Part shown: piece after piece, positions 11,952 through 48,645 of the stretch | How positions within the stretch are numbered: position 1 is the first letter of the stretch | Layout: the number at the start of each line of letters is the position of its first letter | Notes under the pieces: model-generated | The model's database searches: none | Told to the model about the DNA's origin: nothing | The model's input: only the letters and a program-made list of their open reading frames with translations | Program-made: the position numbers and the translations under genes | Assembly: GCF_036077095.1 (NCBI RefSeq) | Contig: NZ_CP107960.1 | Coordinates: 620,001-684,000 of the forward strand | Reading direction: 5' to 3' | From: Streptomyces sp. NBC_00376 | GTDB lineage: Bacteria; Actinomycetota; Actinomycetes; Streptomycetales; Streptomycetaceae | Length of the DNA stretch: 64,000 nucleotides

Positions 11952-14222
11952 TCAGGCCCGCGTCCGCAGTCCGGCCAGGAGTTGGTAGACGGTCTCGGTG
12001 CCCTGTCGCAGTGCTTCGACGCCGATGTGTTCGTCCGTGCCGTGCATGCGCTTGAGCATGTCCCGGTTCACGGTGAACGGGTACATGCCGTACACGGGTA
12101 CGTTCTGTTCCCGGAACGGCACCGCGCTGGTGACCGCCTCGAACTGGCAGGCGGTGGCCCGTACTCCGGGGTGGGTCCGGCGTACAGCGCTCTGCCAGGC
12201 GCGGAAGACGTCCGTGTCGTAGTCGGAGTCGGGTGTGGCCAGATAGCCGCGCAATCGGTCCAGGGCCTGCCGCTCGCTCTCGCCCGGATTTCCGACCACA
12301 CTCAGAGTCGCCCGGTTACCGATCAGCGAGCGGAGCTCGGCGACGATGCGTCCGGGGTCATCGGCCCCCGGCAGGAAGGCCGCCCGGAACTCCGCGGTCG
12401 CGGTGCCCGGCACGATGCTCGGGTAGTAGCCGGACTGGGCGGAGGTGAAGGCGAGCGTGGTCCGCAGCATCGCGTTGTGCAGCTCCGGGGTCTCGCTGAG
12501 CCGCACCACCGCTTCCCCCGCCCGGTCCCGCCGCTGGTCCGTGCGGGCCGCCAGCATCTCCCGGAGCGCCTCGGCGAACGGCCGGTCGGTGGTGGCCTCG
12601 GCCAGTTCGGCGAAGTACTGCCGGGACAGCGCGTTCGGGCGGATGTGGGCACGCCACCCCCCGAGTTGGTCGAGCACCTCGCCCAGCCGGATCACCGCCT
12701 GTCCGCTGAACGGCTTGGAGGTGTGGGTGGCGTACGACGCGGTCTCCAGGCGCAGCAGCAGGGAGCGCTTGTCGTTGCAGGTGAGCGAGGCGATCATGGG
12801 CGTGGTGCCGTCGCGCTGGTTGAGTACCCAGCCGCCCTCGGTGATGACCGCGCCCGCCGCCACCTTGCCCGGGTGTTCCGTGAGGAACCAGCGCACGCCG
12901 TAGGGGCCCTGTTCCTCGTCGCAGTCGGACCAGAGGACGATGTCGCGGTCGAAGGCCGCTCCCTCGCGGACATGGCGCAGCAGAGCGGCGACGAAGGCGG
13001 CGTTGACGCCCTTCATGTCCAGCGAGCCGCGACCATACAGTTTGCCGTCCTTGATCTCCGCGGCGAAGGGGTCCGTCTCCCATCTGTCGCCGATGGCGGG
13101 TACCACGTCGGAGTGGCCGAGCAGGATCAGGGGCTTCTTCGTGATCGGTCCGCTGCCGGGTACGCGGGCGAAGAAGTGGACGTTGCCGTCCTTCGGAGTG
13201 GGCACGATCTCGGTTCCGACTCCGGCATCCCGGAAGATGCCCTGGAGCATCCGGGCGAACGGCAGGGTGACCGCGCCGTCGCCGGGGTTGCTGGTGTTCT
13301 GGCGGATCATGGCGACGGCCAGGGCCACGGGGTCGGTGGGATCGCCGTCGAAGGAGGCTCCGGCCGTCCCCGTCGGCGCGTCGGCCCGCGCCGCAGGTGA
13401 CGCCGATGCCACCGCGCCGAGGCCCAGCACCGTGGACGCGACGGCCGTCGCGCCGGCACCGAGCACGGAACGCCGTGACGGCCGAATTCCGGGAAGTCCG
13501 TCGAGGCAGGCGGAGATGACCGCGGCAGGATTCTCCTGGTGGGCGTAATGACCGCCCCCGACGGACTTCAGGGTGCATTCGCCCCGGGTCCACTCGGCCC
13601 AGCGGCGCACGGTGACCTCGGGCACGTGCGGGTCGTCGGTGGCCCACACCGCACGCAACTCGACCTGCGGAACGGTCCCCCGCCGGCCGTCGTACCGGGC
13701 GGCCAGCCGCAGATCGGCGATGACGGGAGGCAGCAGCACCTCCTCGAACTCGGGGTCCGCAAGCAGCTCCGGGTCGGTCAGTCCGGTTCCGGCGACGAAG
13801 GCGCGGGCGTCCTCGACGGTCACGTCCTCGCCTCGGCCGTGGAAGTCGCCGGGGCACTGCCCGGCAACGGCGCACAGCCGCGTGACGGGCACCCCGGCGT
13901 CGAGCAGCCGGCGGCAGGTCTCGTACGCCAGCAGGGCGCCGAGGCTGACTCCGATCAGTACCAGCCGTCGCCCGCCCAGCAGTTCGCGTGTCCCGGCCGC
14001 CACCGCGTCGGCGTAGGCGGCCATGTCGGTGACGGGCTCCTCGTCGACGCGGGTCCCGCGGCCCGGCGGTGCGACGAACGCGAGGGTGGTGTCCTCGGGA
14101 GTCAGGCCCCGCCAGCTCGCGAACGTCGAGCCGTGGGCGCCGGTGGGTGCGAAGCAGACGGCGAGGGTACCTGTGGCGGAGCCCTGCTGCTCGCCCGGCA
14201 CTGTCAGCCATGGGTCGTTCAT
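11952..14222 (-). CDS. Type II thioesterase fused to an M20-family metallopeptidase
   Basis: A 756-residue protein, last gene of the NRPS operon. Residues 1-245 are a GrsT-like thioesterase: nucleophile in GVSLG (Ser93) and the His in VGGGHYAHQENP (His225). Residues 246-280 look like a Tat signal: RPSRRSVLGAG (Arg250-251), a hydrophobic run, and AARADA. From about 295 the rest is an M20 hydrolase with its metal ligands: GHSDVV (His370), RGSLDMKG (Asp402), DEEQG (Glu436-437) and a C-terminal HGTDEH. Its ATG overlaps the NRPS stop. No usable start lies ahead of the twin Arg, so the fusion looks real. An export signal in mid-protein is odd; the M20 half may trim or mature the peptide. Confidence 0.85.
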   Translation of the reverse strand: MNDPWLTVPGEQQGSATGTLAVCFAPTGAHGSTFASWRGLTPEDTTLAFVAPPGRGTRVDEEPVTDMAAYADAVAAGTRELLGGRRLVLIGVSLGALLAYETCRRLLDAGVPVTRLCAVAGQCPGDFHGRGEDVTVEDARAFVAGTGLTDPELLADPEFEEVLLPPVIADLRLAARYDGRRGTVPQVELRAVWATDDPHVPEVTVRRWAEWTRGECTLKSVGGGHYAHQENPAAVISACLDGLPGIRPSRRSVLGAGATAVASTVLGLGAVASASPAARADAPTGTAGASFDGDPTDPVALAVAMIRQNTSNPGDGAVTLPFARMLQGIFRDAGVGTEIVPTPKDGNVHFFARVPGSGPITKKPLILLGHSDVVPAIGDRWETDPFAAEIKDGKLYGRGSLDMKGVNAAFVAALLRHVREGAAFDRDIVLWSDCDEEQGPYGVRWFLTEHPGKVAAGAVITEGGWVLNQRDGTTPMIASLTCNDKRSLLLRLETASYATHTSKPFSGQAVIRLGEVLDQLGGWRAHIRPNALSRQYFAELAEATTDRPFAEALREMLAARTDQRRDRAGEAVVRLSETPELHNAMLRTTLAFTSAQSGYYPSIVPGTATAEFRAAFLPGADDPGRIVAELRSLIGNRATLSVVGNPGESERQALDRLRGYLATPDSDYDTDVFRAWQSAVRRTHPGVRATACQFEAVTSAVPFREQNVPVYGMYPFTVNRDMLKRMHGTDEHIGVEALRQGTETVYQLLAGLRTRA

Positions 14223-15973
14223 TTCTGCTCCTCCTGCTGGATCTCGCGGCACAGGGCGGCGATCGCGGTGACGGTGGGTGCGCCGAGGATGCGGCGCAGC
14301 GGCACGCGGCGGCCCGCCGTCGCCGCCAGCCGGTTGGCGAGCCGGACGGCGAGCAGGGAGTGGCCTCCGGCGTCGAAGAAGTTCTGGTCCGCCGATGCGG
14401 GCGGTGTGCCGAGCAGTTCCTGCCAGAGCGCGGCGACTGCGGTCTCGGTGGCGTCGGACGGGGTGAATCCGGCCACCCGTTCCTGACCGATGCCTGCCAC
14501 GAGTGTGCCCAGGGCGGTGCGGTCCAGCTTGCCGTTGGTGCTCAGCGGGAGCCGTGGGACCTGCTGGATGCGGGCGGGCACCATGTAGTCGGGCAGCCGG
14601 TCGCGCAGATACGCGCGCAGTGCGGCGGCGCCGGTCTCCTCGTCGGCGGTGACACAGGCGACGATGCGTGTTTCGCCGTCCTCGGTCTCCGCGTAGGCCC
14701 CCGCGTCGGTGACGTCCGGTGCCTTGCGCAGGGTGGCCTCGATCTCCTCCAGCTCGACGCGGTAGCCGCGCACCTTGACCTGGTTGTCGGCGCGTCCGGT
14801 GATCTCCAGCACGGAGTCGGGGAGTTGACGGCCACGGTCGCCGGTGCGGTAGTGCAGGACTCCGGCGTCATCGGTGGTGAAGCGGTCCTCGCCGTCGCCG
14901 CCGACATAGCCGAGGGCGAGTGGTGGTCCGGAGACCCACACCTCGCCGGTCACACCGGCCGGGAGGCGTCGGCCGAGCCGGTCACGGACCGTGAGCGAGG
15001 CGCCCGCCACGGGGCTGCCCACGGGGACGCGTTCGGCGTCGGCGGGCAGCCGGACGGTGTCGTAGGCGGCGACGTTGGAGGCGGTCTCCGTCATGCCGTA
15101 CAGGTTGAGCAGGATGGTGTCGGGCCAGACCTCGCGGAAGCGCAGGACGGTTTCCACGGGCAGGGTGTCGGCGCCGCTGGTGACCAGCACCGGGCGGTGC
15201 CCGTCGGGGCGTCCGGCGCACTCCTGGAGCAGTCCGGCGATCAGCTGCGGGGTCAGGAAGAGATGGGTGATCCGTTCCTGCTCGACGGCGGCGGCGAAGA
15301 GCACCGGATCGAGGAGTTCATCGGTGGCGAGCACGACGGACGGGACGCCCTTGAGCAGTCCGCCCAGCAGTTCCCAGGGCGAGGCGACCAGTGCCAGTGA
15401 CTTCTGGACGGCGAGCACCGCGTTCTCGGGGAACGGGTGGTCCTGCCACATCCACTCCAGCCGGCCACGGACCGAACGGTGGCTGATGCGTACGCCCTTG
15501 GGGTTTCCGGTGGTCCCCGAGGTGTAGACGATGTGGAACAGTGCGTCCTCGTCGGGCTTCTGCTCGGGGGCCTGGTGCAGCGGGCCCTCGGCCAGGGGTG
15601 CCAGTGTGACGCGGGGGGCGTCCAGGGTGGGGAACTGGTCGAGTCCGGGCTCGGCCAGCACGCAGTGCGGCCCGGTCTCCTCCACCATCCGGCGCTGCCG
15701 TCGCACGGGTATCGCGGGGTCCAGCCCGAGGTAGGCGGCGCCGGTCTTCAGTACGGCGAGGACGCCCGCGACGGCGGCGGGCCCGCGCTGGGCGGCGAGT
15801 GCCACCAGCGAGCCCGGGCCGGTGCCCTTGGCGGTGAGCCGGGCGGCCAGCCGGCCGCTCCATTCGTCGAGTTCGCGGTAGGTGACGCTGGTGCCGGTGT
15901 GGCGCAGGGCGACGGCCCGGGGGTGGGCCGCCACCTGCTCGGCGAAGCGTTCCAGCAGGGTCGGCGTGGTCAT
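14219..15973 (-). CDS. NRPS adenylation-thiolation protein (A-T)
   Basis: A 584-residue two-domain NRPS. The adenylation domain has YTSGTTGNPKG (150-160), GMTET and the later YRTGDRGR and NGKLDRT motifs. The carrier domain has GGHSLL with pantetheine Ser539. In the region that normally reads FDxSxW the sequence is LVASPW (195-200), so the Asp that holds the alpha-amino group (GrsA Asp235) is replaced by Val196. The substrate is probably not a standard alpha-amino acid, or is bound differently. There is no condensation domain; the C domain ending the upstream protein presumably serves this carrier. The start overlaps the previous stop (ATGA). Confidence 0.88.
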   Translation of the reverse strand: MTTPTLLERFAEQVAAHPRAVALRHTGTSVTYRELDEWSGRLAARLTAKGTGPGSLVALAAQRGPAAVAGVLAVLKTGAAYLGLDPAIPVRRQRRMVEETGPHCVLAEPGLDQFPTLDAPRVTLAPLAEGPLHQAPEQKPDEDALFHIVYTSGTTGNPKGVRISHRSVRGRLEWMWQDHPFPENAVLAVQKSLALVASPWELLGGLLKGVPSVVLATDELLDPVLFAAAVEQERITHLFLTPQLIAGLLQECAGRPDGHRPVLVTSGADTLPVETVLRFREVWPDTILLNLYGMTETASNVAAYDTVRLPADAERVPVGSPVAGASLTVRDRLGRRLPAGVTGEVWVSGPPLALGYVGGDGEDRFTTDDAGVLHYRTGDRGRQLPDSVLEITGRADNQVKVRGYRVELEEIEATLRKAPDVTDAGAYAETEDGETRIVACVTADEETGAAALRAYLRDRLPDYMVPARIQQVPRLPLSTNGKLDRTALGTLVAGIGQERVAGFTPSDATETAVAALWQELLGTPPASADQNFFDAGGHSLLAVRLANRLAATAGRRVPLRRILGAPTVTAIAALCREIQQEEQK

Positions 15974-18900
15974 CGGTGATCGTCTCCGGGCAGCAGATCG
16001 AGGGAGCGAACGGTGGTGTGCTCGGCACGCTCCGGGTCGGTGAGGGCCCGGAGCGCGATCAGGGTGGATTCCAGTACGTTGCGGGCGGCCGGCGCGTCGA
16101 GCAGCTCCCGCTGGTAGGCGTACTGGAGGAGCAGTCGGCCGGGGCCGTGCGGCTGGACGTACAAAGCGCAGTCGTACTTGGTGTAGCCGGTGTCCAGTTC
16201 GACGAAGCGGAACCGGACGTCCGACGCCGTGGTGGCGCGCGCCGGGTAGGGCAGCATGTTGAGCATGGTCTGGAAGACCGGGGTCGCCGATGAGCTCCGC
16301 GAGGCGGCCGGAAGCCGCCGTAACGTCCAGCCGAAGGGGTGCTCGGCCGCGGCATAGGCGTCGTACACCGTCTCCCTCACCTGTGCGGTGAACTCCGCGA
16401 GGGTGACGGCCGGGTCGATGTCCAGGCGCAGTGGCAGCATGGCGAGCACGAAGGCGGGCACATCGGCGGTCTCCGGACGCTCCCGCCCCGCCATCGGGGC
16501 GCCGATGATCACGTCGTCGGTGTCGCTGTAGTAGCTCAGGGCCAGTGCATAGGCGGCCAGCAGCGGTACGAACTCGGTGGCGGACGCGGCCAGCGCGGTG
16601 TCGCGCAGCCGCCGGGACAGCCGCTCGTCGAGGACCGCCTCGGTGATCTCGCCCCGATAGGTGGGTGCGGCGGGCCGCTGCTTCTGTGCGATCTGGAGGA
16701 CCGGAAGCCCGCCCGCGAGCCGCCGCAGCCAGTACTCCCCCGCCGCGGCCACCTCCTCGGTGGCCAGCCGCTCGGTGAGGTGGTCGAGATAGCGGTCGTA
16801 GCGGGTGGCGCGTTCGGGGTCGGGCCCGGCGGGCCGCTGTTCGTAGAGTTCGGCCAGGCGCTGGAACAGCACGGTCGCTCCCCAGCCGTCGAGGAGCAGT
16901 TCATGCATGGTGACAAGGAGCCGGTGCTGCCCGTCGGGCAACCGGAACAGACTGGTCCGCAGGGCCGGTTCGGTGAGCAGGTCGAAGGGCCGGGCCGCCT
17001 CCTCGGCGGCCGTCGCGCGAAATGCTTCCGCGGTGACGTCCCGGGCGCTGCCGGGCAGCGGCACCTCCCAGTGCGGGTACTGGTGCACCACCTCGTGCAC
17101 CCCTTCCTGCGCCGCGTCCTGCCCGTCCGCCCCGTCTGTCCCGTCGTTCTCCGCGAATCGGGCGAGGAGCAGTGGATTCTCGGCGAGCAGCAGCTGCCAG
17201 GCCCGGGCCAGCCTTGCCACGTCGAGGAGTCCGTCGAGTTCCAGGGAACCCTGGTAGCTGTAGTAGGGGCTGAGCGGGTCGAGCCGCCAGTGGAAGTACA
17301 CGCCGGTCTGCTGCGGGGTGAGCGGCCGGGTGCGCGGTGCGCCGTCCCGCACCGCCTCCGTGCGGGCACCGGGCGCGGGCCTCCGTTCCTTGCCGAGCGC
17401 GGCGAGCGCGGCGGGGCTGCCGTCGCGCAGCACGTCACGCAGGCCGGCGGCCGATCCCGTCCCGCGAAGGGCGGCGACCAGCCGCATGGCCAGCAGCGAA
17501 TCGCCGCCCAGCTCCAGGAACCTGTCGTTCCTGCCGACCCGTCCGGTGCCGAGGAGCCCGGCGACGACGTCCGCGATCGCGGTCTCCGCCGCGCCGCGCG
17601 GCGGGGCGTACGGGCGCGTGTCGGGGCGGCTGCGGCGCGGTGGTGCGGGCAGGGCCTTGTAGTCCGTCTTGCCGTTGCGGGTGAGCGGGAGCCGGGGCAG
17701 GACGACAAAGGTGTGCGGCACCATGGGAGCAGGGAGCCGGCCGCTCAGATGGGCGCGCAGTGATTCCTCCGTCGGCTCGTCGCCGGAGGCGGCGACATAC
17801 GCGACTAGCCGGGGTGGCTGCGCCGCCACCGGAGTGTGTGCGCTCTCCCGGGCGACCAGGGCTCCGGTGTCGTCGGGGGTGTGGACGGTGACGGCGCAGG
17901 CGGCGATCCGGGGGTGGTCGCCCAGCACCGCCTCGATCTCGGCGAGCTCCATGCGTACGCCGCCGAGCTTCACCTGCCGGTCCACCCGGCCCAGGTACTC
18001 CAGTTGGCCGTCCGGCAGTGCGCGTACGGCGTCCCCGGTGCGGTAGAGGCGTCCGCCACCGGTGCCGAACGGGTCGGTGAAGAAGGCGAGAGCGGTGCGC
18101 TCCGGGTCACCGAGGTAGCCACGGCCCACGACGAGTCCCCCGACGAACAGCTCCCCCGTCTCCCCGTGCGCACAGGCATGCCACTGCCCGTTCTCCTCGC
18201 GCAGTACGTACAGTTCGGCGTTCCCGATGGGCGAGCCGATCGGCAGATGGCGTACTCCGGCGGCCGGAGGACCGAGTTCGGCATGGGTGACGTCGTCCGA
18301 ACACTCGGTGGGGCCGTACGCGTTGAGCAGCCGGATGCCCGGCATGGTGTAGTGCCACCGCCGGGCCAGAGCGGGTGGCAGTTCCTCGCCGGTGGCGATC
18401 ATCCAGCGCAGCGCGCCGGGCCGGATTCCCGCGCTCTCCTGGGCGTCGAGCAGGAAGCGGATCAGTGTGGGTACGGTCTCCAGCACCGTGGTGCCGCATC
18501 CGCGCAACGCCTCCAGCAGCAGGGCGCCGTCCTGTGCCTGCTCGTCGGCGAAGATCTGGACCCGGCCGCCGACGAGCAGCGGGGCGAGCATCTGCCATAC
18601 GGAGATGTCGAAGCTCAGCGGCGCGGTCTGGGCCAGTCGGTCGTCCGCGGTCAGCCCCAGATCGTCGATCTTGGCCCAGAGGTGGTTGAGCATTCCGCGG
18701 TGCTCGACGATCGCGGCCTTGGGCCGGCCGGTCGACCCCGAGGTGTAGAGGACGTAGCGCACCTCGTCCGGGCCGGGCGACAGGGTCCGGGTGTACGAGG
18801 CATCGGCCGGTTCCGGTGTGGTGGTGGGTACGCCGGCCGCGCGGGCGCCCTTGACCAGTTCCCCGGTGTCCGTCGGCGCGCCGGTGGTCAGCATCAGTGC

Positions 18901-19302
18901 CGCGCCGCTGTCGGTGAGCAGGGATTCGACGCGTGCGGCGGGCCAGCTCGCATCGACCGGCAGGTAGACGGCGCCCAGCAGCTCCAGGGCGAGGAAGGCC
19001 GTGACGACGTCGGCGCCGCGCCGCCCGCCGACCGCGACGATCTGCCCCCGAGAGATCCCGGCGGCCGCCAGCTGCGCGGCGGTGCGGCGCATCCGGTCGG
19101 CCAACCGGCCGTATCCGAGGGACTCTTCGCCGTCCTCGACGGCGGTCCGGTGGGGGTGTGCGGCCGCGAACCGCTCGACGTAGGCATGGACCCCTTCCCC
19201 CAGTTCGTACGGTTCGTGGCGGGTGAGTGCCGCGGCGACGGCGCGCTCGCGCGCCCCGTCGGCCAGCGGAAGGCGGGGGTAGTACTCGGGCAGGCCGGTC
19301 AC
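15970..19302 (-). CDS. NRPS adenylation-thiolation-condensation protein (A-T-C)
   Basis: A 1110-residue NRPS. The A domain (about 30-545) has YTSGSTGRPK (186-195), LSFDISVW (Asp232, Ile233, Trp236), GPTEC (330-334) and NGKTDYKA. The binding-pocket residues read by alignment are roughly D-I-W-E-I-T-A-D-D; I do not assign a substrate. The T domain has LGGDSLL with Ser602. The C domain (about 680-1090) has MHELLLDGW where HHxxxDG is expected: His800 is kept, but the second, catalytic His is Glu801. The GTG start overlaps the methyltransferase stop. Domain order implies transfer of its aminoacyl group to the A-T protein encoded downstream. Confidence 0.9.
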   Translation of the reverse strand: MTGLPEYYPRLPLADGARERAVAAALTRHEPYELGEGVHAYVERFAAAHPHRTAVEDGEESLGYGRLADRMRRTAAQLAAAGISRGQIVAVGGRRGADVVTAFLALELLGAVYLPVDASWPAARVESLLTDSGAALMLTTGAPTDTGELVKGARAAGVPTTTPEPADASYTRTLSPGPDEVRYVLYTSGSTGRPKAAIVEHRGMLNHLWAKIDDLGLTADDRLAQTAPLSFDISVWQMLAPLLVGGRVQIFADEQAQDGALLLEALRGCGTTVLETVPTLIRFLLDAQESAGIRPGALRWMIATGEELPPALARRWHYTMPGIRLLNAYGPTECSDDVTHAELGPPAAGVRHLPIGSPIGNAELYVLREENGQWHACAHGETGELFVGGLVVGRGYLGDPERTALAFFTDPFGTGGGRLYRTGDAVRALPDGQLEYLGRVDRQVKLGGVRMELAEIEAVLGDHPRIAACAVTVHTPDDTGALVARESAHTPVAAQPPRLVAYVAASGDEPTEESLRAHLSGRLPAPMVPHTFVVLPRLPLTRNGKTDYKALPAPPRRSRPDTRPYAPPRGAAETAIADVVAGLLGTGRVGRNDRFLELGGDSLLAMRLVAALRGTGSAAGLRDVLRDGSPAALAALGKERRPAPGARTEAVRDGAPRTRPLTPQQTGVYFHWRLDPLSPYYSYQGSLELDGLLDVARLARAWQLLLAENPLLLARFAENDGTDGADGQDAAQEGVHEVVHQYPHWEVPLPGSARDVTAEAFRATAAEEAARPFDLLTEPALRTSLFRLPDGQHRLLVTMHELLLDGWGATVLFQRLAELYEQRPAGPDPERATRYDRYLDHLTERLATEEVAAAGEYWLRRLAGGLPVLQIAQKQRPAAPTYRGEITEAVLDERLSRRLRDTALAASATEFVPLLAAYALALSYYSDTDDVIIGAPMAGRERPETADVPAFVLAMLPLRLDIDPAVTLAEFTAQVRETVYDAYAAAEHPFGWTLRRLPAASRSSSATPVFQTMLNMLPYPARATTASDVRFRFVELDTGYTKYDCALYVQPHGPGRLLLQYAYQRELLDAPAARNVLESTLIALRALTDPERAEHTTVRSLDLLPGDDHR

Positions 19303-20114
19303 CGGCCCGCCTGCTTCTCGGCGATGACCAGCAGGTACTCGACCGGTACGCCCGTGCCTCGCTCGTCCGTGGTGTGGAATCCCTCGGTCATCTCGACCAT
19401 TTCCGCTCGCAGTTCCTTCCATCGCGAGGGCGGCGAAATGGTGTTCCTCGCCGCGATGCAGGGGCCGAAGCAGTTCTCGAAGAAGGTGACCAGGTCCTCG
19501 GCCGCGGCGAACGGGTAGAAGAGTTCCCGGCGTTCGGAGGTGACCGTGAAGCCGGGGCCGAGGAGTTCGGCGAGGTAGTCCGGCGATCCCCACAGCATGG
19601 GCTGTCCCTGATGGCCGTTGGGCGAGGGGAAGTAGGCGGAGAGGATCTCCTGGAAGTGCGCGGTCCAGCTGCGCGCCGTCCAGTTGCACATGCCGATGCG
19701 GCCGCCGGGCCGCAGTACCCGGGCCATCTCCCCGCTCGACGCGGCGTGGTCGGGCGCGAACTGGATCCCGTAGGTGGAGGTCACCAGGTCGAACGAGGCG
19801 TCGGTGAAGGGGAGTTCCTGGGCATCGCCCCGTCGCAGCTCCACCTGGACGCCTGCCTGGGCGAACCGTTCGCGTGCGTCGGGGAAGAACTCGTCGGTCA
19901 GGTCCAGCCCGGTGACGACGCAGCCGCGCAGGGCGGACAGCAGCGCGACGTTGCCGTTGCCGGTGGCGACATCGAGATGGGCGGTGTCCGGCGCGGGGGC
20001 CAGCCGGTCGACCAGCTCGACGGCGCCCGGCCGCAGCAGATCGGCGACGTGCCGGTACTCGCCGTACGACCACATGGTCCGGTTGATCTCCTGGATGTTC
20101 TGATCGATCGTCAT
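19299..20114 (-). CDS. Class I SAM-dependent methyltransferase of the NRPS operon
   Basis: A 271-residue methyltransferase. The SAM-binding loop is LDVATGNGNVAL (about 48-59), followed by the acidic GLDLTDEFF and then GDAQELPF and RVLRPGGRIGMCNW. It resembles the UbiE/small-molecule group. It should methylate the peptide or one of its building blocks; N-, O- or C-methylation cannot be told. Its ATG is 12 nt after the SbnB-like stop, and its TGA overlaps the GTG of the A-T-C NRPS, so it is part of the operon. Confidence 0.85.
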   Translation of the reverse strand: MTIDQNIQEINRTMWSYGEYRHVADLLRPGAVELVDRLAPAPDTAHLDVATGNGNVALLSALRGCVVTGLDLTDEFFPDARERFAQAGVQVELRRGDAQELPFTDASFDLVTSTYGIQFAPDHAASSGEMARVLRPGGRIGMCNWTARSWTAHFQEILSAYFPSPNGHQGQPMLWGSPDYLAELLGPGFTVTSERRELFYPFAAAEDLVTFFENCFGPCIAARNTISPPSRWKELRAEMVEMTEGFHTTDERGTGVPVEYLLVIAEKQAGR

Positions 20115-20125
20115 GCGAATCCCCC

Positions 20126-21199
20126 TCAGAGCGTGAGCCGGGCGCCGAGACCGGCGGCTTCGGCGCGGGCGTGGATGCGGTCGGCCACGGCGACGTCGAG
20201 GATCGACATCCCGAACGGGTTGCTGATCACGATGTCGTCCTGGCCGCGGCGGCCCGGGTGCCGCCCGGCGAGCACATCGCCGAGCGTGCCGTCGACGCGG
20301 CGGGCACCGGGCCGGGCGGTCACTCCTTCCCGCGGGGTGCCGTCGGGGCCGAGCAGGGTGCCTGCCCGGTGCATCCGGCCGAGCAGCCGTCGCGGGTCGT
20401 CACGGACCAGGCTCCAGTCGTCGACGATCACCGTGTCGGCCGAGAGCACGGCCGCTTCGGTGAGGTCGTCCAGCGAGACATGGCAGACGAGCGCGCCGGG
20501 CAGCAGCCAGTCGGGGTCGATGTACCCCTGGGTCACCGTGGTGACGGGCACGACGAGTTCGGCGCCCCGTACCGCCTCGCGCGGTCCGTCGGCGACCACC
20601 GTCTCGATGTCCGCCGCACCCGGCAGCGAGGCGATGTGGTGGGCGACGGACTTCGCACGGTCGGGCGCCACGTCGTACAGCGTGATGCGGCGCAGGGTGG
20701 GCACGGTACGCAGCAGCAGCGCGATGTGCGCCTGGGCGAGGGCGCCGCAGCCGAGGAGTGCCAGCCCGCGCGGTTCCGGCACCGCCAGATGGCGCACGGC
20801 GAGCGCGGTCACCGCCGCGGTGCGCATCGCGCTGATGTAGGCGGCCTCCATCAGGGCGAGGGGGCGGGCGGTCTCCGGATCGAGGAGCAGGGTGAAGCCC
20901 TGGGAGCGGGGTATGCCGCGCCCTGGGTTGCCGATCGAGGCGTTGATGGTCTTCATGCCGATGACCGGCGGCCGCCCCTCCTTGACGAGTGCGCCGGGCA
21001 TGGCCAGCAGCCTGGCCGAGTCGCCCTGCGGGGTGGTCCAGCCCAGGTATGCCTCCTCGGGAAGCTCGGACCGACCGGCGGAGTGCAGCCTGAGCGCCTC
21101 GGCCACCGTCGCCACGATGTCCACGTCGCGGGCGGCCTCGATGACGTCCGCGCGGGTCAGATAGCGGAAGTGGCTGTCGGGGTATTGCTCGAAGTCCAT
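20126..21199 (-). CDS. sbnB: SbnB-like N-((2S)-2-amino-2-carboxyethyl)-L-glutamate dehydrogenase
   Basis: A 357-residue member of the ornithine cyclodeaminase/mu-crystallin family: substrate-side KTINASIGNP (about 103-112) and dinucleotide loop LLGCGALAQAH (about 148-158). In staphyloferrin B biosynthesis SbnB oxidatively hydrolyses the amino-carboxyethyl-glutamate made by SbnA, releasing L-2,3-diaminopropionate and 2-oxoglutarate. The sbnA homologue two genes upstream makes this reading much stronger than a stand-alone ornithine cyclodeaminase. The pair should supply diaminopropionate to the NRPS. Confidence 0.85.
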   Translation of the reverse strand: MDFEQYPDSHFRYLTRADVIEAARDVDIVATVAEALRLHSAGRSELPEEAYLGWTTPQGDSARLLAMPGALVKEGRPPVIGMKTINASIGNPGRGIPRSQGFTLLLDPETARPLALMEAAYISAMRTAAVTALAVRHLAVPEPRGLALLGCGALAQAHIALLLRTVPTLRRITLYDVAPDRAKSVAHHIASLPGAADIETVVADGPREAVRGAELVVPVTTVTQGYIDPDWLLPGALVCHVSLDDLTEAAVLSADTVIVDDWSLVRDDPRRLLGRMHRAGTLLGPDGTPREGVTARPGARRVDGTLGDVLAGRHPGRRGQDDIVISNPFGMSILDVAVADRIHARAEAAGLGARLTL

Positions 21200-21259
21200 G
21201 ACGGGCGGGGCTCCTTGGCGAGAGGGGTCGGTTGCGGTGGGGACGGCGCGGGAGCGGCT

Positions 21260-22489
21260 TCAGCCGCCGGGGGTGTGTGCCGCGCGGAGCATCACGAAGG
21301 GGACGAACGCACCCAGCAGCAGTACGCCGGCGAGTGCGATCCAGCCGGCCGTGCCGAGGGCTAGGACGACGCCGGTCATCAGCACCGGGCCCGCGACCCG
21401 GTTGGCCACCGTGCGGCTGGTGTTGAACAGCACCAGGTAGGCGCTGCGCGCCCCTTCCGGTGCCAGGTCGAAGGAGAGCGTCCACGAGGCGCCGACCTGC
21501 AGCAGCTCGGCGAACGTCAGGAGGACGACGGCCGAGCCGAGCACCAGCAGTGCCTCTCGCGCCCCGAATCCGGGCGCGGCGGCGAAGGCCAGGGCGCCGC
21601 AGCTGAGCAGCAGGGCCGCACCCGCGTAGGAGAGCCAGGCCCGGCGCGTGGTGCTGTAGCAGCGGTTGAGGGGGTACTGGAGGGCGATGCACAGCACGGT
21701 GTTGACGGCGTACAGGATGCCCACATAGCGCTCCGGCACATCCGTCTCGGTGACCAGCCACAGCGGGAAGGCCACATTGAGCACCGGCATCCAGAGCGAC
21801 ACCAGTGCGTTGTACGCGGTGAAGCCGAGCAGTCGGCGGTCCTTGAGCAGATCCGCCACCCGGGCGCTCGCGACCGCCGTCGCCGTCTTCTCCTCCCGCC
21901 GCGCGGTGGCGTACACGGCGGCCACCGCCACGTAGGCGACCGCGCCACCGACCAGCAGCGGCCTGAATGCTCCCGGCGCGCCGGAGCCCAGGGCGACTCC
22001 GGCGATCAGCCCACCAAGGCTGATACCGAGGTTGACGACGGTGCGCTGCACGGCCATGACCTTCGCGCGCAGGTTCTCCGGGGCGCGCGCGCCGACGTAC
22101 GACTGGACCAGTGGGGGTGAGGACTGCTCGGTGACGGCGATGACGGCGACCACGAGCAGAAAACTCCACCAACCGTCCACCCAGAGGTAGCCGACGGTGG
22201 CCAGTGCGCGCAGCAGCATCACACCGATCAGCACCGGCTTCGGCCCGAAGCGCCCGGCCAGCCGGGCGATGGGCACGGCGGCGGCGATGGCGACCACCCC
22301 GCCGATGGTCAGACCGGTGCCGACGGACGAGGTACTGAGATGGGCGACCTTGACGAAGTAGATGGTCGAGACGGCGAGGAAGAGGCCCGTGCCGGTCCAT
22401 TCGATCAGCGTGGCGCCCTGCACCAGTGGCAGGTACTGCCGGTGGCCGGGGCGGGTCCGCTGCCGGTCAAGGGTGGTGCTGGTGCCCAT
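21260..22489 (-). CDS. MFS transporter of the NRPS operon
   Basis: A 409-residue major facilitator with about 12 hydrophobic segments and basic loops between them (for example RLAGRFGPKP near residue 80 and ARREEK before the central loop). It resembles drug-efflux MFS proteins. Placed between the two precursor genes, it most likely exports the NRPS product and may give self-protection. The ATG at 22487-22489 lies 2 nt before the sbnA stop; longer readings would run into sbnA. The substrate is inferred from position only. Confidence 0.82.
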   Translation of the reverse strand: MGTSTTLDRQRTRPGHRQYLPLVQGATLIEWTGTGLFLAVSTIYFVKVAHLSTSSVGTGLTIGGVVAIAAAVPIARLAGRFGPKPVLIGVMLLRALATVGYLWVDGWWSFLLVVAVIAVTEQSSPPLVQSYVGARAPENLRAKVMAVQRTVVNLGISLGGLIAGVALGSGAPGAFRPLLVGGAVAYVAVAAVYATARREEKTATAVASARVADLLKDRRLLGFTAYNALVSLWMPVLNVAFPLWLVTETDVPERYVGILYAVNTVLCIALQYPLNRCYSTTRRAWLSYAGAALLLSCGALAFAAAPGFGAREALLVLGSAVVLLTFAELLQVGASWTLSFDLAPEGARSAYLVLFNTSRTVANRVAGPVLMTGVVLALGTAGWIALAGVLLLGAFVPFVMLRAAHTPGG

Positions 22490-22491
22490 GT

Positions 22492-23526
22492 TCAGTGCTC
22501 CTGGTGCTTTCGGTCGAAGAAGAGTCCTTCGCTGCGCAGTCGTTGCACGGCGGCGGTGATCTCCTTGGCGACGCCCTGTTCGGTCGCCCAGTTGTCGCAG
22601 TAGAGGGTGTCCCGGTATTTGGCGCCGCCGTCCGCGGCCAGGCAGACCGCGAGCCGGCCGTCCGTCCCGGCCTCCTCCTGATCGGTCAGCATCGCGCGCA
22701 CGGCGCAACCGCTGGAGCCGCCGAGTGCGAGCCCGATGTCCTCGGCGATGATCCGGCAGACGGCGATCGCCTCGATGTCGTCGACGTGCACCGCGCGGTG
22801 GTAGCTGTGCGGCGCCTTCAGGAAGACGGACGGGCGGCTGGCTCCGATGCCCGGGACCAGGCGCCGTCCGCCGCTGCCCGAGACAGCCAGTGAGCCGCGT
22901 ACGTCCACGGCGACCGCGGCGACGTCGGGCCGGTGCTCGCGCAGATGGGCGCTGATGCCCGCGAGGGTGCCGCCGGTGGAGACCGGTATGTACACCGCGC
23001 CGAGCTCCGGTCCCGCCTGCGCGGTGAGTTCGGGTCCGGTGGTGAGCCGGTGGATGTGGGGCGCGGCCCAGTTCTCGTACTGGTCGGGCCAGCGGTATCC
23101 GGGGTTGTCCGCACACAGCTCGCGCACCCGGCGCAACCGGCTCAGCAGGTAGCCGCCCAGGCCGTCGGGTTCGTCGACGACGATCACCCGCGCTCCGCTG
23201 TCCGCGAGCCCGCGGCGGGTGGCGTGCGGGGTCTTGATATCGACCACGGCGAGGAAGTCGCAGCCGAGCGTCGGCAGCAGCCTGGCCAGGGCGAGGCCCA
23301 GGTTGCCCGAGGTGGATTCGACCACCACGGTGCCCGGGGTGAGCGGCCGTTCGTCGTGCAGCGCCCGTAACAGTCCTACGGCGCTGCGGTCCTTCACCGA
23401 TCCGGTGGGGCCGTGTTCTTCGAGTTTCAGGCCCAGACGCCGCACCCGACCCCGGTGGGTGACGTCCAGGCGGAGTAAGGGTGTTGTGCTGAGGGCCCGC
23501 GCCAGGACGGGATTGACACGCGACAC
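22492..23526 (-). CDS. sbnA: SbnA-like 2,3-diaminopropionate biosynthesis enzyme (PLP)
   Basis: A 344-residue fold-type II PLP enzyme related to cysteine synthase: PLP Lys45 in TGSVKDR, STSGNLG (about 72-78), and the phosphate loop STGGTLAG. SbnA joins O-phospho-L-serine to L-glutamate, giving the substrate of SbnB. CysK-like sequence alone would allow a cysteine synthase, but pairing with an SbnB homologue in an NRPS operon favours the diaminopropionate route. It is the first gene of the seven-gene leftward operon, which ends at 11952. Confidence 0.85.
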   Translation of the reverse strand: MSRVNPVLARALSTTPLLRLDVTHRGRVRRLGLKLEEHGPTGSVKDRSAVGLLRALHDERPLTPGTVVVESTSGNLGLALARLLPTLGCDFLAVVDIKTPHATRRGLADSGARVIVVDEPDGLGGYLLSRLRRVRELCADNPGYRWPDQYENWAAPHIHRLTTGPELTAQAGPELGAVYIPVSTGGTLAGISAHLREHRPDVAAVAVDVRGSLAVSGSGGRRLVPGIGASRPSVFLKAPHSYHRAVHVDDIEAIAVCRIIAEDIGLALGGSSGCAVRAMLTDQEEAGTDGRLAVCLAADGGAKYRDTLYCDNWATEQGVAKEITAAVQRLRSEGLFFDRKHQEH

Positions 23527-27426: not shown

Positions 27427-28464
27427 TCAGTTCGCCTTCTCGACGAACTCGGTCGTGTAAGTCTTGGCGAGGTCCACCTCGGCGTTCTTCAGGTTCGGGT
27501 TGAAGGCCTTCAGGACCCGCTCGACGGTGGCGGGGCCGTCCGCGGGCATGACGCCGTCCTTGGTGAACATGGGCAGTGTGCTCTTGATCGCCTGCGCGTA
27601 CAGGGCCTTGCCGCCGCCCTGGGCGTAGTCGGCGGGCATCTTCGCGGCGATCTCGTCGGCGCTGTGCGTGGACATCCACTTCAGCGTCCTGACGAAGGCG
27701 TTGGCCAGCTTCTGGACCGTCTTCTTGTGGCTGTTGACCCACTCGGTCTGCATGTAGAGGCTGGACGACGGGTAGAGCCCGCCGAGCGCCTGCCTGGAGC
27801 CCTCGGGGGTCCGCATGTCGATGAGGATCTTGCCGAGCTTCTTGTCCAGGATGGTGGCGACCGTGGGGTCGGTGGTCATGCCGCCCTCGATGGAACCCTG
27901 CTGGAGGGCGGAGATGAACGTCTGTCCGGCTCCGACGGCCACGGGTGTGAATTCGCTGGTCTTCACACCGTTGCTCACGGCGAGGTACTTCGTCAGGAAG
28001 TCGGTCGAGGAGCCGATGCCCGTGACACCGAGCTTCTTGCCCTTGAAGTCCTTCGCCGAACGGACCTCCCCCGCCGCCTTGTTGGACACGATCTCGACCT
28101 CGCCGGGGGCCTGGGAGAACTGGACGACCGACTCGACCTGCTTGCCCTTCACCTGGAGGTCGAGGGTGTGGTCGTAGAAGCCCACCGTGCCCTGGACGTC
28201 TCCGGAGACCAGTGCCGTCTCGGCCTGGACGCCGGCGGGCTCGGTCAGGAGCTGGACCGACACCCCCTCGTCCTTGAAGTAGCCGAGCCGCTCGGTCAAC
28301 ATCGCGGGCAGGTAGATGACCTTGTCCAGGCCGCCGACCATGATCTTGACCTTGTCGTTCTTGTCGCCGGAGGCCGAGGTGGAGTCGCCGCCACAGGCGG
28401 TGAGGCTGGTCAGGGCGAGTACGCCGACGACGGCGAGGGCCGGGATCCGGGTGGATGCACGCAT
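27427..28464 (-). CDS. ABC substrate-binding lipoprotein, NMT1/SsuA type
   Basis: A 345-residue exported lipoprotein with lipobox LTAC near residue 23, followed by an NMT1/THI5/SsuA-type binding fold: early YLPAMLTERLGYFKDEG, KKLGVTGIGSSTDFLTKYLA and the SIEGGMTTDPTVA segment. This family binds sulfonates, nitrate, taurine or pyrimidine-like compounds; the ligand cannot be told. The ATG at 28462-28464 follows AAGGAC. Last gene of a three-gene importer operon (ATPase, permease, binding protein). Confidence 0.85.
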   Translation of the reverse strand: MRASTRIPALAVVGVLALTSLTACGGDSTSASGDKNDKVKIMVGGLDKVIYLPAMLTERLGYFKDEGVSVQLLTEPAGVQAETALVSGDVQGTVGFYDHTLDLQVKGKQVESVVQFSQAPGEVEIVSNKAAGEVRSAKDFKGKKLGVTGIGSSTDFLTKYLAVSNGVKTSEFTPVAVGAGQTFISALQQGSIEGGMTTDPTVATILDKKLGKILIDMRTPEGSRQALGGLYPSSSLYMQTEWVNSHKKTVQKLANAFVRTLKWMSTHSADEIAAKMPADYAQGGGKALYAQAIKSTLPMFTKDGVMPADGPATVERVLKAFNPNLKNAEVDLAKTYTTEFVEKAN

Positions 28465-28535
28465 CTGATTCACGTCCTTGTGAAGAAACATTCGGGAACA
28501 GTCGTGGTGACGGGGCGTCTGCGAGCGGTGTCGGC

Positions 28536-29399
28536 TCAGCGGGCGGTGTCCGCGTCGGCCGGCTTCCAGCGGAAGAGCCGCTTCTCCAGGAAGGTCAGCA
28601 GTCCTTCGGCCAGCAGCGCGACGATCGCGAGGATGACCATCGCGGCGTAGACGCCGGCGGCGTTGAACGTGCCCTGGGAGGCGGCGACCAGCAGGCCGAG
28701 TCCCTTGGTGGCGCCGATGTACTCGCCGACGATCGCGCCGATGAGCGCGAAGCCGAAGCTCACGTGCAGGCTGGTGAAGATCCACGAGGTGGCGGAGGGG
28801 ATGACCACCTGCAGGGTGACCTGGCGGTTGCTGGCGCCCAGGATGCGGGAGTTGGCGACGAGGTTGCGGTCGACCTCCCGTGCGCCCTGGAAGGCGTTGA
28901 AGAAGACGGGGAAGAACACGAGGACGACCGCGGAGGCCACCTTCGAGGCGGGGCCGAGACCGAACCAGATGAGGAAGATCGGCGCGAGCACGATCCGGGG
29001 CAGCGCGTTGAGCACCTTGATGTACGGGCCGAGGACATCGGCGGCGAACCGCACCCGGCCCAGCGCGATCCCGAGCAGTACCCCGGCGATCACACCGATG
29101 ACCCAGCCGAGCAGTGCTTCGTAGAGCGTGTACCAGATCTGCTCCCAGAGGGATCCCTGGGCGGTTCCGTCGACGACCCAGGTGCGGATCTGGTCCCAGA
29201 TCTTCGAGGGCATGGAGAAGTTGAACGGGTCGATGACCGCCGTACGGGCCAGCCATTCCCACAGTCCGACGACCGCGAGGAGCACCGCTATCCGGCTCGC
29301 CGTCACCAGGTACTTGCGGTTCCTGGCGGCTCTGGCCCTGGCCCGGGTCCGCTCGGTCTTCGTCACGGCGGCGCTCGCGGTGATGGTGTCAGGCGACAT
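28536..29399 (-). CDS. ABC permease, SsuC/TauC type
   Basis: A 287-residue permease with about six membrane segments and the BPD_transp_1 cytoplasmic coupling region (NSRILGASNRQVTLQVVIP, the EAA-loop equivalent) for the ATPase. The ATG at 29397-29399 lies inside the end of the ATPase gene (11-nt overlap), showing translational coupling. It should form the membrane channel for the ligand held by the 27427-28464 lipoprotein. Confidence 0.87.
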   Translation of the reverse strand: MSPDTITASAAVTKTERTRARARAARNRKYLVTASRIAVLLAVVGLWEWLARTAVIDPFNFSMPSKIWDQIRTWVVDGTAQGSLWEQIWYTLYEALLGWVIGVIAGVLLGIALGRVRFAADVLGPYIKVLNALPRIVLAPIFLIWFGLGPASKVASAVVLVFFPVFFNAFQGAREVDRNLVANSRILGASNRQVTLQVVIPSATSWIFTSLHVSFGFALIGAIVGEYIGATKGLGLLVAASQGTFNAAGVYAAMVILAIVALLAEGLLTFLEKRLFRWKPADADTAR

Positions 29400-30204
29400 C
29401 AAGTGCACCCCTCTCGCGGGTGATGCGGACCTCTTCGCCGAGCGAGGACCAGATCTCCCGGTAGATCTCGACGAACCGGGGCTCCAGCCGCACCTGCTCG
29501 ACCTTGCGGGGACGGGGCAGGTCGATCTCGAAGACCTCCTTGACCGTGGCCGGTCCCGCGGTCATGACCACCACCTTGTCGGCCAGCGCGATGGACTCCT
29601 CCAGGTCATGGGTGACGAAGACGACGGAGGCGCCGGTACCGGCCCACAGCTCCAGCAGTTCGTCCGACATCAGCGCCCGGGTCTGCACGTCGAGCGCGGA
29701 GAAGGGCTCGTCCATGAGCAGGATCTCGGGGTCGTTGACGAACGTCGCCGCGAGCGCGACGCGCTTGCGCTGGCCGCCGGACAGCTGGTGGGGGTAGCGG
29801 TCCTCGAAGGAGGAGAGGCCGACCCTGGCGAGCCACTCCCGGGCCCGCTCCTTCGCCTCGGGCTTGGGCACACCGCGGAAGCGGGGCCCCGCCATCACAT
29901 TGGACAGCACGGTCCGCCAGGGGAAGACGGCGTCCTGCTGGAAGACGAAGCCGACCTTGTCGCCGATGCCGCGCACCGGTTCCCCGGCCACCAGCACCTC
30001 GCCCTCGGTGGGCTCCTCCAGTCCGCTGACCAGGGTCAGCGTGGTCGACTTGCCGCATCCGGTGGGGCCCACCACGGCGACGAACTCGCCGCGCCCGATC
30101 GTGAGGTCCAGATCCCGTACGGCGGTGTGGAGCGCCCCCGACGGAGTCCGGAACGCTTTGCTCGCCCCCCGCAGTTCGATGGCGGGGCTCGTTTCGCTTT
30201 TCAT
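29389..30204 (-). CDS. ABC ATPase, SsuB/TauB type
   Basis: A 271-residue ATPase: Walker A GPTGCGKST (about 43-51), Q-loop FVFQQDAVFPW, signature LSGGQRKR, Walker B LLMDEPFSALD and the switch His in FVTHDLEESI. The closeness to SsuB/TauB/NrtD proteins fits uptake of sulfonate-, nitrate- or nucleobase-like compounds. First gene of the leftward importer operon; its upstream region carries the direct repeats at 30262-30299 and faces a two-component system that may control it. Confidence 0.9.
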   Translation of the reverse strand: MKSETSPAIELRGASKAFRTPSGALHTAVRDLDLTIGRGEFVAVVGPTGCGKSTTLTLVSGLEEPTEGEVLVAGEPVRGIGDKVGFVFQQDAVFPWRTVLSNVMAGPRFRGVPKPEAKERAREWLARVGLSSFEDRYPHQLSGGQRKRVALAATFVNDPEILLMDEPFSALDVQTRALMSDELLELWAGTGASVVFVTHDLEESIALADKVVVMTAGPATVKEVFEIDLPRPRKVEQVRLEPRFVEIYREIWSSLGEEVRITRERGALDVA

Positions 30205-30261
30205 GGAGCGGGACGCTAGAGGCGCCCGGAGGAGCCGGGCACCCTTGCGCCCACAACTCCG

Positions 30262-30299
30262 GGTTCTGCTCATAACCCGGGGTTCTGCTCGTTCTGCTC
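30262..30299. repeat. Direct repeats GGTTCTGCTC, candidate regulator sites
   Basis: GGTTCTGCTC occurs at 30262-30271 and 30281-30290, and a third copy without the first G follows at 30291-30299. The repeats lie about 60-95 bp upstream of the ABC ATPase start, between it and the divergent sensor kinase. Same-orientation repeats are common binding sites for response regulators, and the CitB-type regulator is encoded next door. The link is inferred. Confidence 0.5.
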
Positions 30300-30422
30300 G
30301 CGCTCCGGCAACGAATGCGCCACGAGGACTGGTCATCGGCGACCACGACGTTTACGTTGCGTTCACACGAGGACGAAACGGAGCATCATGTTCCTGGCAG
30401 GCGGAAGGCAGAGGGCGAGCAC

Positions 30423-48565: not shown

Positions 48566-48645
48566 AGGTCCTCCATTGATCACTCAAGTCACCGGAGTCG
48601 CGCAGCAGAACAACACCGAATTCAACATCGTGGCGCTTGCATGTC

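Follow-up and report, generated by a model that had tools for sequence, protein, structure and literature searches.

The window analysed here, a stretch of 64,000 nucleotides from Streptomyces sp. NBC_00376 (620-684 kb of contig C1, NZ_CP107960.1, in a genome of 10.04 Mb in 3 contigs), carries on its minus strand a leftward operon of seven genes and 11.6 kb (23526-11952). Judging from its architecture, the operon is built to assemble a molecule of two parts from L-2,3-diaminopropionate (Dap), a rare amino acid. It opens with an SbnA/CmnB-type pyridoxal phosphate (PLP) enzyme of 344 residues (22492..23526; PALP, 4e-51), the predicted first half of an L-Dap-forming pair. This is followed by a transporter of the major facilitator superfamily (MFS), a presumed exporter of 409 residues found in 13/13 loci (21260..22489; MFS_1, 1.3e-24), and by the predicted second half of the pair, an SbnB/CmnK-type enzyme of the ornithine cyclodeaminase (OCD) fold with 357 residues (20126..21199; OCD_Mu_crystall, 2.1e-47). 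Next comes a UbiE-like S-adenosylmethionine-dependent methyltransferase of 271 residues (19299..20114; Methyltransf_11, 3.2e-21), one of the best-conserved genes in the operon. The nonribosomal peptide synthetase (NRPS) consists of two proteins. Module 1 has adenylation, carrier and condensation domains (A-T-C; 1110 residues; 15970..19302; AMP-binding, PP-binding and Condensation profiles), and module 2, delimited by domain search, has adenylation and carrier domains (A-T; 584 residues; 14219..15973). The last gene (11952..14222) encodes, in a single frame, a fusion of 756 residues that joins a thioesterase (TE), an internal signal of the twin-arginine translocation (Tat) type and an M20 peptidase (Thioesterase and Peptidase_M20 profiles). 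Its open reading frame was listed from 14252; the ATG at 14222, which overlaps the stop of the A-T gene, is more plausibly the start.

Profile searches found all seven genes where the initial annotation of this DNA had placed them, with the domains it had named, and its proposal of a two-carrier assembly line is borne out by the A-T-C and A-T proteins. Its description of the genes as mostly overlapping applies to three of the six junctions (methyltransferase/A-T-C, A-T-C/A-T and A-T/TE-M20, 4 nt each), but not to the other three, where gaps of 2 nt (SbnA/MFS), 60 nt (MFS/SbnB) and 11 nt (SbnB/methyltransferase) occur. Four features described below had been missed: the His-to-Glu condensation domain, the absent Asp235 of the second A domain, the internal Tat signal and a four-module relative. 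The earlier reading was thus supported in part.

The A-T-C protein was scanned against 84,980 species genomes, and the best 80 places, equal to 73 loci, were kept. The scan relies on exact peptide words, and divergent members may escape it; genome G528, which holds the four-module relative, was not among the loci recognised from it. The complete seven-gene set was found in unchanged order in 13 distinct loci, namely the window, 11 contigs of GTDB species and L147 of genome G878. The 11 contigs (L006-L016) are from Streptomyces and are 63-93% identical to the window in the best segment of the A-T-C search. Genomes G075 (seemingly the L016 strain) and G670 (L012) were left out of the count. Since the set recurs complete and ordered in 12 further loci, it is not a chance assembly. 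Loss of synteny between the Dap genes and the NRPS genes had been named initially as a possible refutation; the synteny is kept in 13/13 loci.

The seven-gene unit is rare. With the own genome included in every count, the TE-M20 protein had matches at E<=1e-100 in 2 of 199 genomes of the genus, and 2 of the 150 relatives searched matched the A-T protein at E<=1e-105. The methyltransferase was matched at E<=1e-75 in 4/392 genus genomes, one of them being the four-module variant, and at E<=1e-55 in 3/296 genomes of the class. One of the latter, G252, has a methyltransferase of 37-38% identity, and its 19.9 kb gave no match to the rest of the operon at E<=1e-5. SbnB alone is commoner (20/295 genus genomes at E<=1e-60). 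Eight regions with SbnB relatives were inspected. Two carry the unit or its variant (L131, and L138, seemingly the L016 strain). For the remaining six (L132-L137), no MFS, methyltransferase or M20 match was obtained at E<=1e-8.

The boundaries of the unit were traced through its flanks, compared over approximately 3-6 kb per side, except for one flank of L012 with 0.55 kb. Nine neighbours of the operon in the window (glpF, glpK, PBP and others) were not found beside L010, L012, L013 and L015 at E<=1e-20. The flanking open reading frames of these four loci had no match at E<=1e-25 in the other ortholog loci, in L017 or in the window. Without any common gene in these flanks, the compared sequence gives no sign of an eighth gene linked to the set, and the operon is, on this comparative evidence, a self-contained biosynthetic unit. 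In the remaining seven loci, some flanking genes are common with the window. L017 of Actinomadura roseirufa retains SbnA, MFS, the methyltransferase and the A domain, has no SbnB and looks decayed. A TnpB-like transposon protein, recognised by eye, lies on the opposite strand between the A-T-C and A-T genes of L012 (L012:8133-9335).

The predicted Dap-forming pair is closest, among solved structures, to that of capreomycin biosynthesis. The PLP enzyme had its best PDB sequence match in CmnB (222 bits vs 152 bits for SbnA), and the OCD-fold enzyme in CmnK (222 bits vs 153 bits for the putative OCD 4m54, which we take to be SbnB of S. aureus). The scores against the SbnA and SbnB equivalogs of NCBIfam (the TIGR03945/TIGR03944 pair) were below the cut-offs, with 264.6 vs 349.95 bits for the PLP protein and 234.9 vs 326.9 bits for the OCD protein. 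By their closest relatives of solved structure, both enzymes belong to the CmnB/CmnK type. Thus the SbnA/SbnB route proposed initially holds as to the supply of Dap, but not as to the identity of the enzymes. The expected PLP-lysine motif G[ST]VKDR was present in 12/13 loci, that of L013 being unmatched to this string. A literature search for CmnB/CmnK returned no paper. Near the NRPS genes of L018 (Ktedonobacteria; L018:20806-22917), homologs of SbnA (40%) and SbnB (43%) were found, the latter being the highest SbnB identity among L017-L078.

The code of the first A domain (A1), DIWEITADDK, is identical in the window, the 11 orthologs, L017 and the variant L131. A DIWExTADD code is present in 54 of the 62 loci outside this group (L017-L078). 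An SbnB homolog occurs within the locus in 25 of these 54 vs none of the 8 loci without the code, genes beyond 10 kb being unseen in this sample. The sample is also biased because its loci were fetched by words from the A-T-C protein, and one such word came from the A4 region of A1. A1 thus has both the code of a Dap-activating A domain and the link to Dap genes, and because A1-type codes travel with SbnB-type genes elsewhere, module 1 very probably loads Dap. Loading of L-Dap has been shown for CmnA-A1, according to the accessible part of PMC12400406. Literature searches with A-domain code strings gave nothing useful.

The second A domain (A2; code VAWF(V/T)(S/G)LSNK, A5 motif in 13/13 loci) departs from the usual pattern. 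In A domains for alpha-amino acids, Asp235 binds the alpha-amine; A2 has Val at this position in the window, the 11 orthologs and L131. Its substrate, X, is therefore probably no ordinary alpha-amino acid. Across 289 A domains from 78 loci, gaps aside, the sole other domain without Asp235 outside L001-L016 was one of L073. Residues 299 and 301 of the A2 code vary with the alignment used, MAFFT giving T/G and alignment by hand V/S, and position 278 is F, or Y in L006 and L010. A narrow A4 pattern was unmatched in L009 and L012, though the codes of both carry V235.

In the condensation domain of module 1, Glu stands in place of the second, catalytic His. Its motif is HELLLDG (residues 800-806 of the A-T-C protein, from which the position 16885..16905 on the minus strand was calculated), and the canonical HHxxxDG is replaced by HE[LI]L[LI]DG in 13/13 loci and in L131. 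The alignment of C domains had 327 rows (326 domains and the query, with identical sequences merged and short matches dropped). Glu was found in 13 rows: the query, its copy from the window (L001) and the orthologs L006-L016 (11 rows). The other 314 domains had 302 His, 6 Gln, 4 Ala, 1 Tyr, 1 gap and no Glu, the four Ala rows apparently reflecting another motif or a misalignment. The Glu domains form one clade (support 1.0), and their next relatives are merely 31% identical. Conservation across loci was 64-92% for C vs 66-94% for A1; the C domain is thus about as conserved as A1 and not decaying, which disfavours a decaying or inactive condensation domain. Domains with Gln for the catalytic His (HQ[MI]LFDG) occur once each in L030, L033, L051, L065, L070 and L078.

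Thioesterase and M20 peptidase share a single open frame in the 12 loci aligned, and an origin of the fusion in a sequencing error was rejected on this ground; in L147, both parts are present with their motifs. The Tat-type element (SRRSVLG, a hydrophobic stretch and AxA sites) lies at about residues 249-281 (13380..13478, minus strand). The motif SRRxxL between the two domains, beginning at residue 248-256, was present in 13/13 loci, with S249, R250 and R251 invariant in 12 sequences and the motif also kept in L147. AxA follows it in 12 sequences, and the hydrophobic stretch was recognised by eye. The signal stands at residue ~249 and not at the N-terminus. Before the motif, no in-frame start codon common to the 12 loci read was found, so separate translation of the M20 part is disfavoured. 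The M20 half may be exported from within the fusion through its Tat-type signal. All four zinc-site motifs of M20 metallopeptidases (HxD, D, EE and the C-terminal H) were found in 13/13 loci, and the thioesterase serine motif in 12/13. M20 relatives outside the unit, among 246 genomes of the phylum, were 29-36% identical for the nearest of the matches listed.

A longer form of the pathway is found in G528 (L131 with L139 and L140). It contains SbnA, MFS, SbnB, methyltransferase, A1-T1-C(HE) and A2-T2 at 59-79% identity, and A2-T2 is followed by one protein of the order C-A-T-C-A-T-TE. The A-domain codes of this protein, DIFQLGVVWK and DFTKVGHVGK, presumably resemble Gly and Asp codes. Both of its C domains have HHxxxDG. 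The seven-gene form stops at T2. As L131 continues after A2-T2 with two canonical modules and TE, T2 sits where the chain is handed on. A longer chain can thus start from the first two modules, in agreement with a bifunctional X.

Taken together, these features suggest the following pathway. The CmnB/CmnK-type pair would make L-Dap and A1 would load it on T1, both steps being well supported by sequence. A2 would load X on T2, X possibly being a small bifunctional acid that lacks an ordinary alpha-amine, e.g., a hydroxy acid or an amino acid of the beta or gamma type. The Glu-variant C domain would join Dap to X on T2, the thioesterase half would release Dap-X, and the MFS protein would export it. 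The methyltransferase may act on Dap or on the product. Outside the membrane, the Tat-tethered M20 half would cut or trim Dap-X, and the active small molecule would then appear only outside the producer. The complete sequence of events, from the Dap-X dipeptide line with its Glu C domain to thioesterase release, MFS export and external M20 trimming, is the account we favour, at a probability somewhat short of even. More doubtful is its most specific form, in which a single polypeptide combines a cytoplasmic thioesterase with a Tat-exported, unmasking M20, behind a new class of Glu C domains that joins Dap to a non-alpha-amino acid. Such a fusion would couple the release of the product to its extracellular unmasking in an unusual way.

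Several points weigh against this pathway. In the 50.5 kb of the L131 variant, the M20 and TE of the window had no match at E<=1e-3; M20 thus does not belong to the core chemistry. It is also unusual for a Tat signal to lie internally, after a folded domain. In L013 (L013:15171-17525), Gly replaces the catalytic Ser of the thioesterase (GVGLG), although M20 site and Tat motif are both intact, and the thioesterase may thus not be the release enzyme there. The AlphaFold model of TE-M20, built from 12 sequences, is too poor for use, with a mean predicted local distance difference test (pLDDT) score of 54.3; the thioesterase half is mostly >60, and the linker (244-288) and much of M20 are <50. The A-T-C reading frame of L016 is split. 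Dap-activating sequences are given as 80% identical to those for diaminobutyrate (Dab) in the accessible part of PMC12283262, and since the codes are so alike, the A1 code alone makes no certain separation of Dap from Dab. Finally, the second His of AmbB is required for condensation, and its change to Ala abolishes the reaction (PMC8968710, accessible part); HExxxDG could accordingly mean no condensation at all.

The last point leads to an alternative, which we hold to be unlikely, that the Glu C domain is non-condensing or reacts differently, with the carriers feeding, e.g., an ester, a cyclisation or a free release. The His-to-Glu exchange in 13/13 loci and the variant, seen in 0/314 other C domains, agrees with a changed function, as does the loss of condensation in the AmbB mutant. 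The streptothricin ORF18 C domain, with HQxxxDM, shows that an altered motif can accompany an altered task (review PMC11546977, in its accessible text). On the other side, the same two sources state that some C domains do not need the second His (PMC8968710 and PMC11546977), and the canonical C domains directly after T2 in the variant are as expected for a condensed intermediate on T2. Also in favour of condensation, altered C motifs are described as more frequent with a small acceptor in the accessible part of the fuscachelin C-domain paper (PMC8097023). A lineage with a fixed Glu beside sister His C domains, such as those of the L131 pathway, makes the question of the second His testable.

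It is just as unlikely that the dipeptide line operates as proposed while M20 destroys product that re-enters or accumulates, protecting the producer rather than activating the product. The four-module variant without M20 would agree with such a role, and the Tat-type placement and the intact zinc site (13/13) fit a surface hydrolase of either kind. The fusion of M20 to the thioesterase suggests a pathway step instead. Resistance hydrolases are usually separate genes, which also counts against self-protection.

Less probable still is the formation of N-methyl-Dap, similar to beta-N-methylamino-L-alanine (BMAA), by the methyltransferase, with release from a Dap-X precursor. The methyltransferase adjoins the Dap genes, and L017 keeps it with SbnA, MFS and A1. 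Paenilamicins contain methylated Dap residues (PMC9414260, accessible part). Against this, nothing points to a particular methylation site, the PDB relatives of the methyltransferase are weak and mixed, and L017, lacking SbnB, looks decayed. A Dap-containing siderophore or metallophore is highly improbable and a staphyloferrin-like siderophore was rejected as the principal explanation, since, although SbnA/SbnB serve staphyloferrin B synthesis (PMC3179956, accessible part), the seven proteins gave no match to siderophore synthetase families of the IucA/IucC type, an iron-binding group is not evident, and no iron-box-like string was found by a simple exact pattern in ~330 bp upstream of 14 loci.

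To our knowledge, the Pseudomonas amb pathway to a methoxyvinylglycine dipeptide has no M20 fusion. Otherwise it is similar in its initiating A-T-C protein, its second protein with TE and the released dipeptide Ala-AMB, as far as the accessible accounts go. AmbB is a module of A, T and C domains and joins the residue it carries to a second one bound to another protein, and the pathway releases a dipeptide (PMC8968710, accessible part). According to these accounts, AmbB differs in loading Ala and having HHxxxDG in place of the HE motif. Furthermore, AmbC/AmbD hydroxylate the bound Glu and the methyltransferase is a domain inside AmbE (PMC8968710); among the seven operon proteins, there are no two enzymes hydroxylating a carrier-bound residue.

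The similarity to capreomycin and viomycin lies in CmnB and CmnK and, in the accessible literature, in the loading of Dap by CmnA-A1. Unlike capreomycin, the operon is a two-module line without a gene resembling the A-domain-less CmnI, and presumably none of its genes resembles the remaining capreomycin-specific ones. The sbn genes of staphyloferrin B are similar in SbnA and SbnB homology, and differ in the siderophore synthetase gene that the operon lacks and in the scores below both NCBIfam cut-offs. The assembly lines of paenilamicin and galantin are much longer than that of the operon. Their likeness lies in bringing NRPS, Dap and methylation together (PMC9414260, accessible part). In the literature searched, which was mostly open-access with MIBiG outside its scope, no cluster with the exact gene set was found, in line with the initial annotation. 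The small size of the unit makes it easily moved into a Streptomyces host.

When the upstream regions of the 14 loci (~330 bp) were aligned, a GTGACA-16-TAAGGT-like block was recognised by eye in the window and in several, though not all, of the more closely related loci. Elsewhere in the window, a beta-N-acetylglucosaminidase (NAGidase, Glyco_hydro_20b and F5/F8 type C domains) is encoded at 45881-48583 on the minus strand. An NMT1-type ATP-binding cassette (ABC) transporter, with binding protein, permease and ATPase, lies a few kb from the operon on the same strand (27427-30336).

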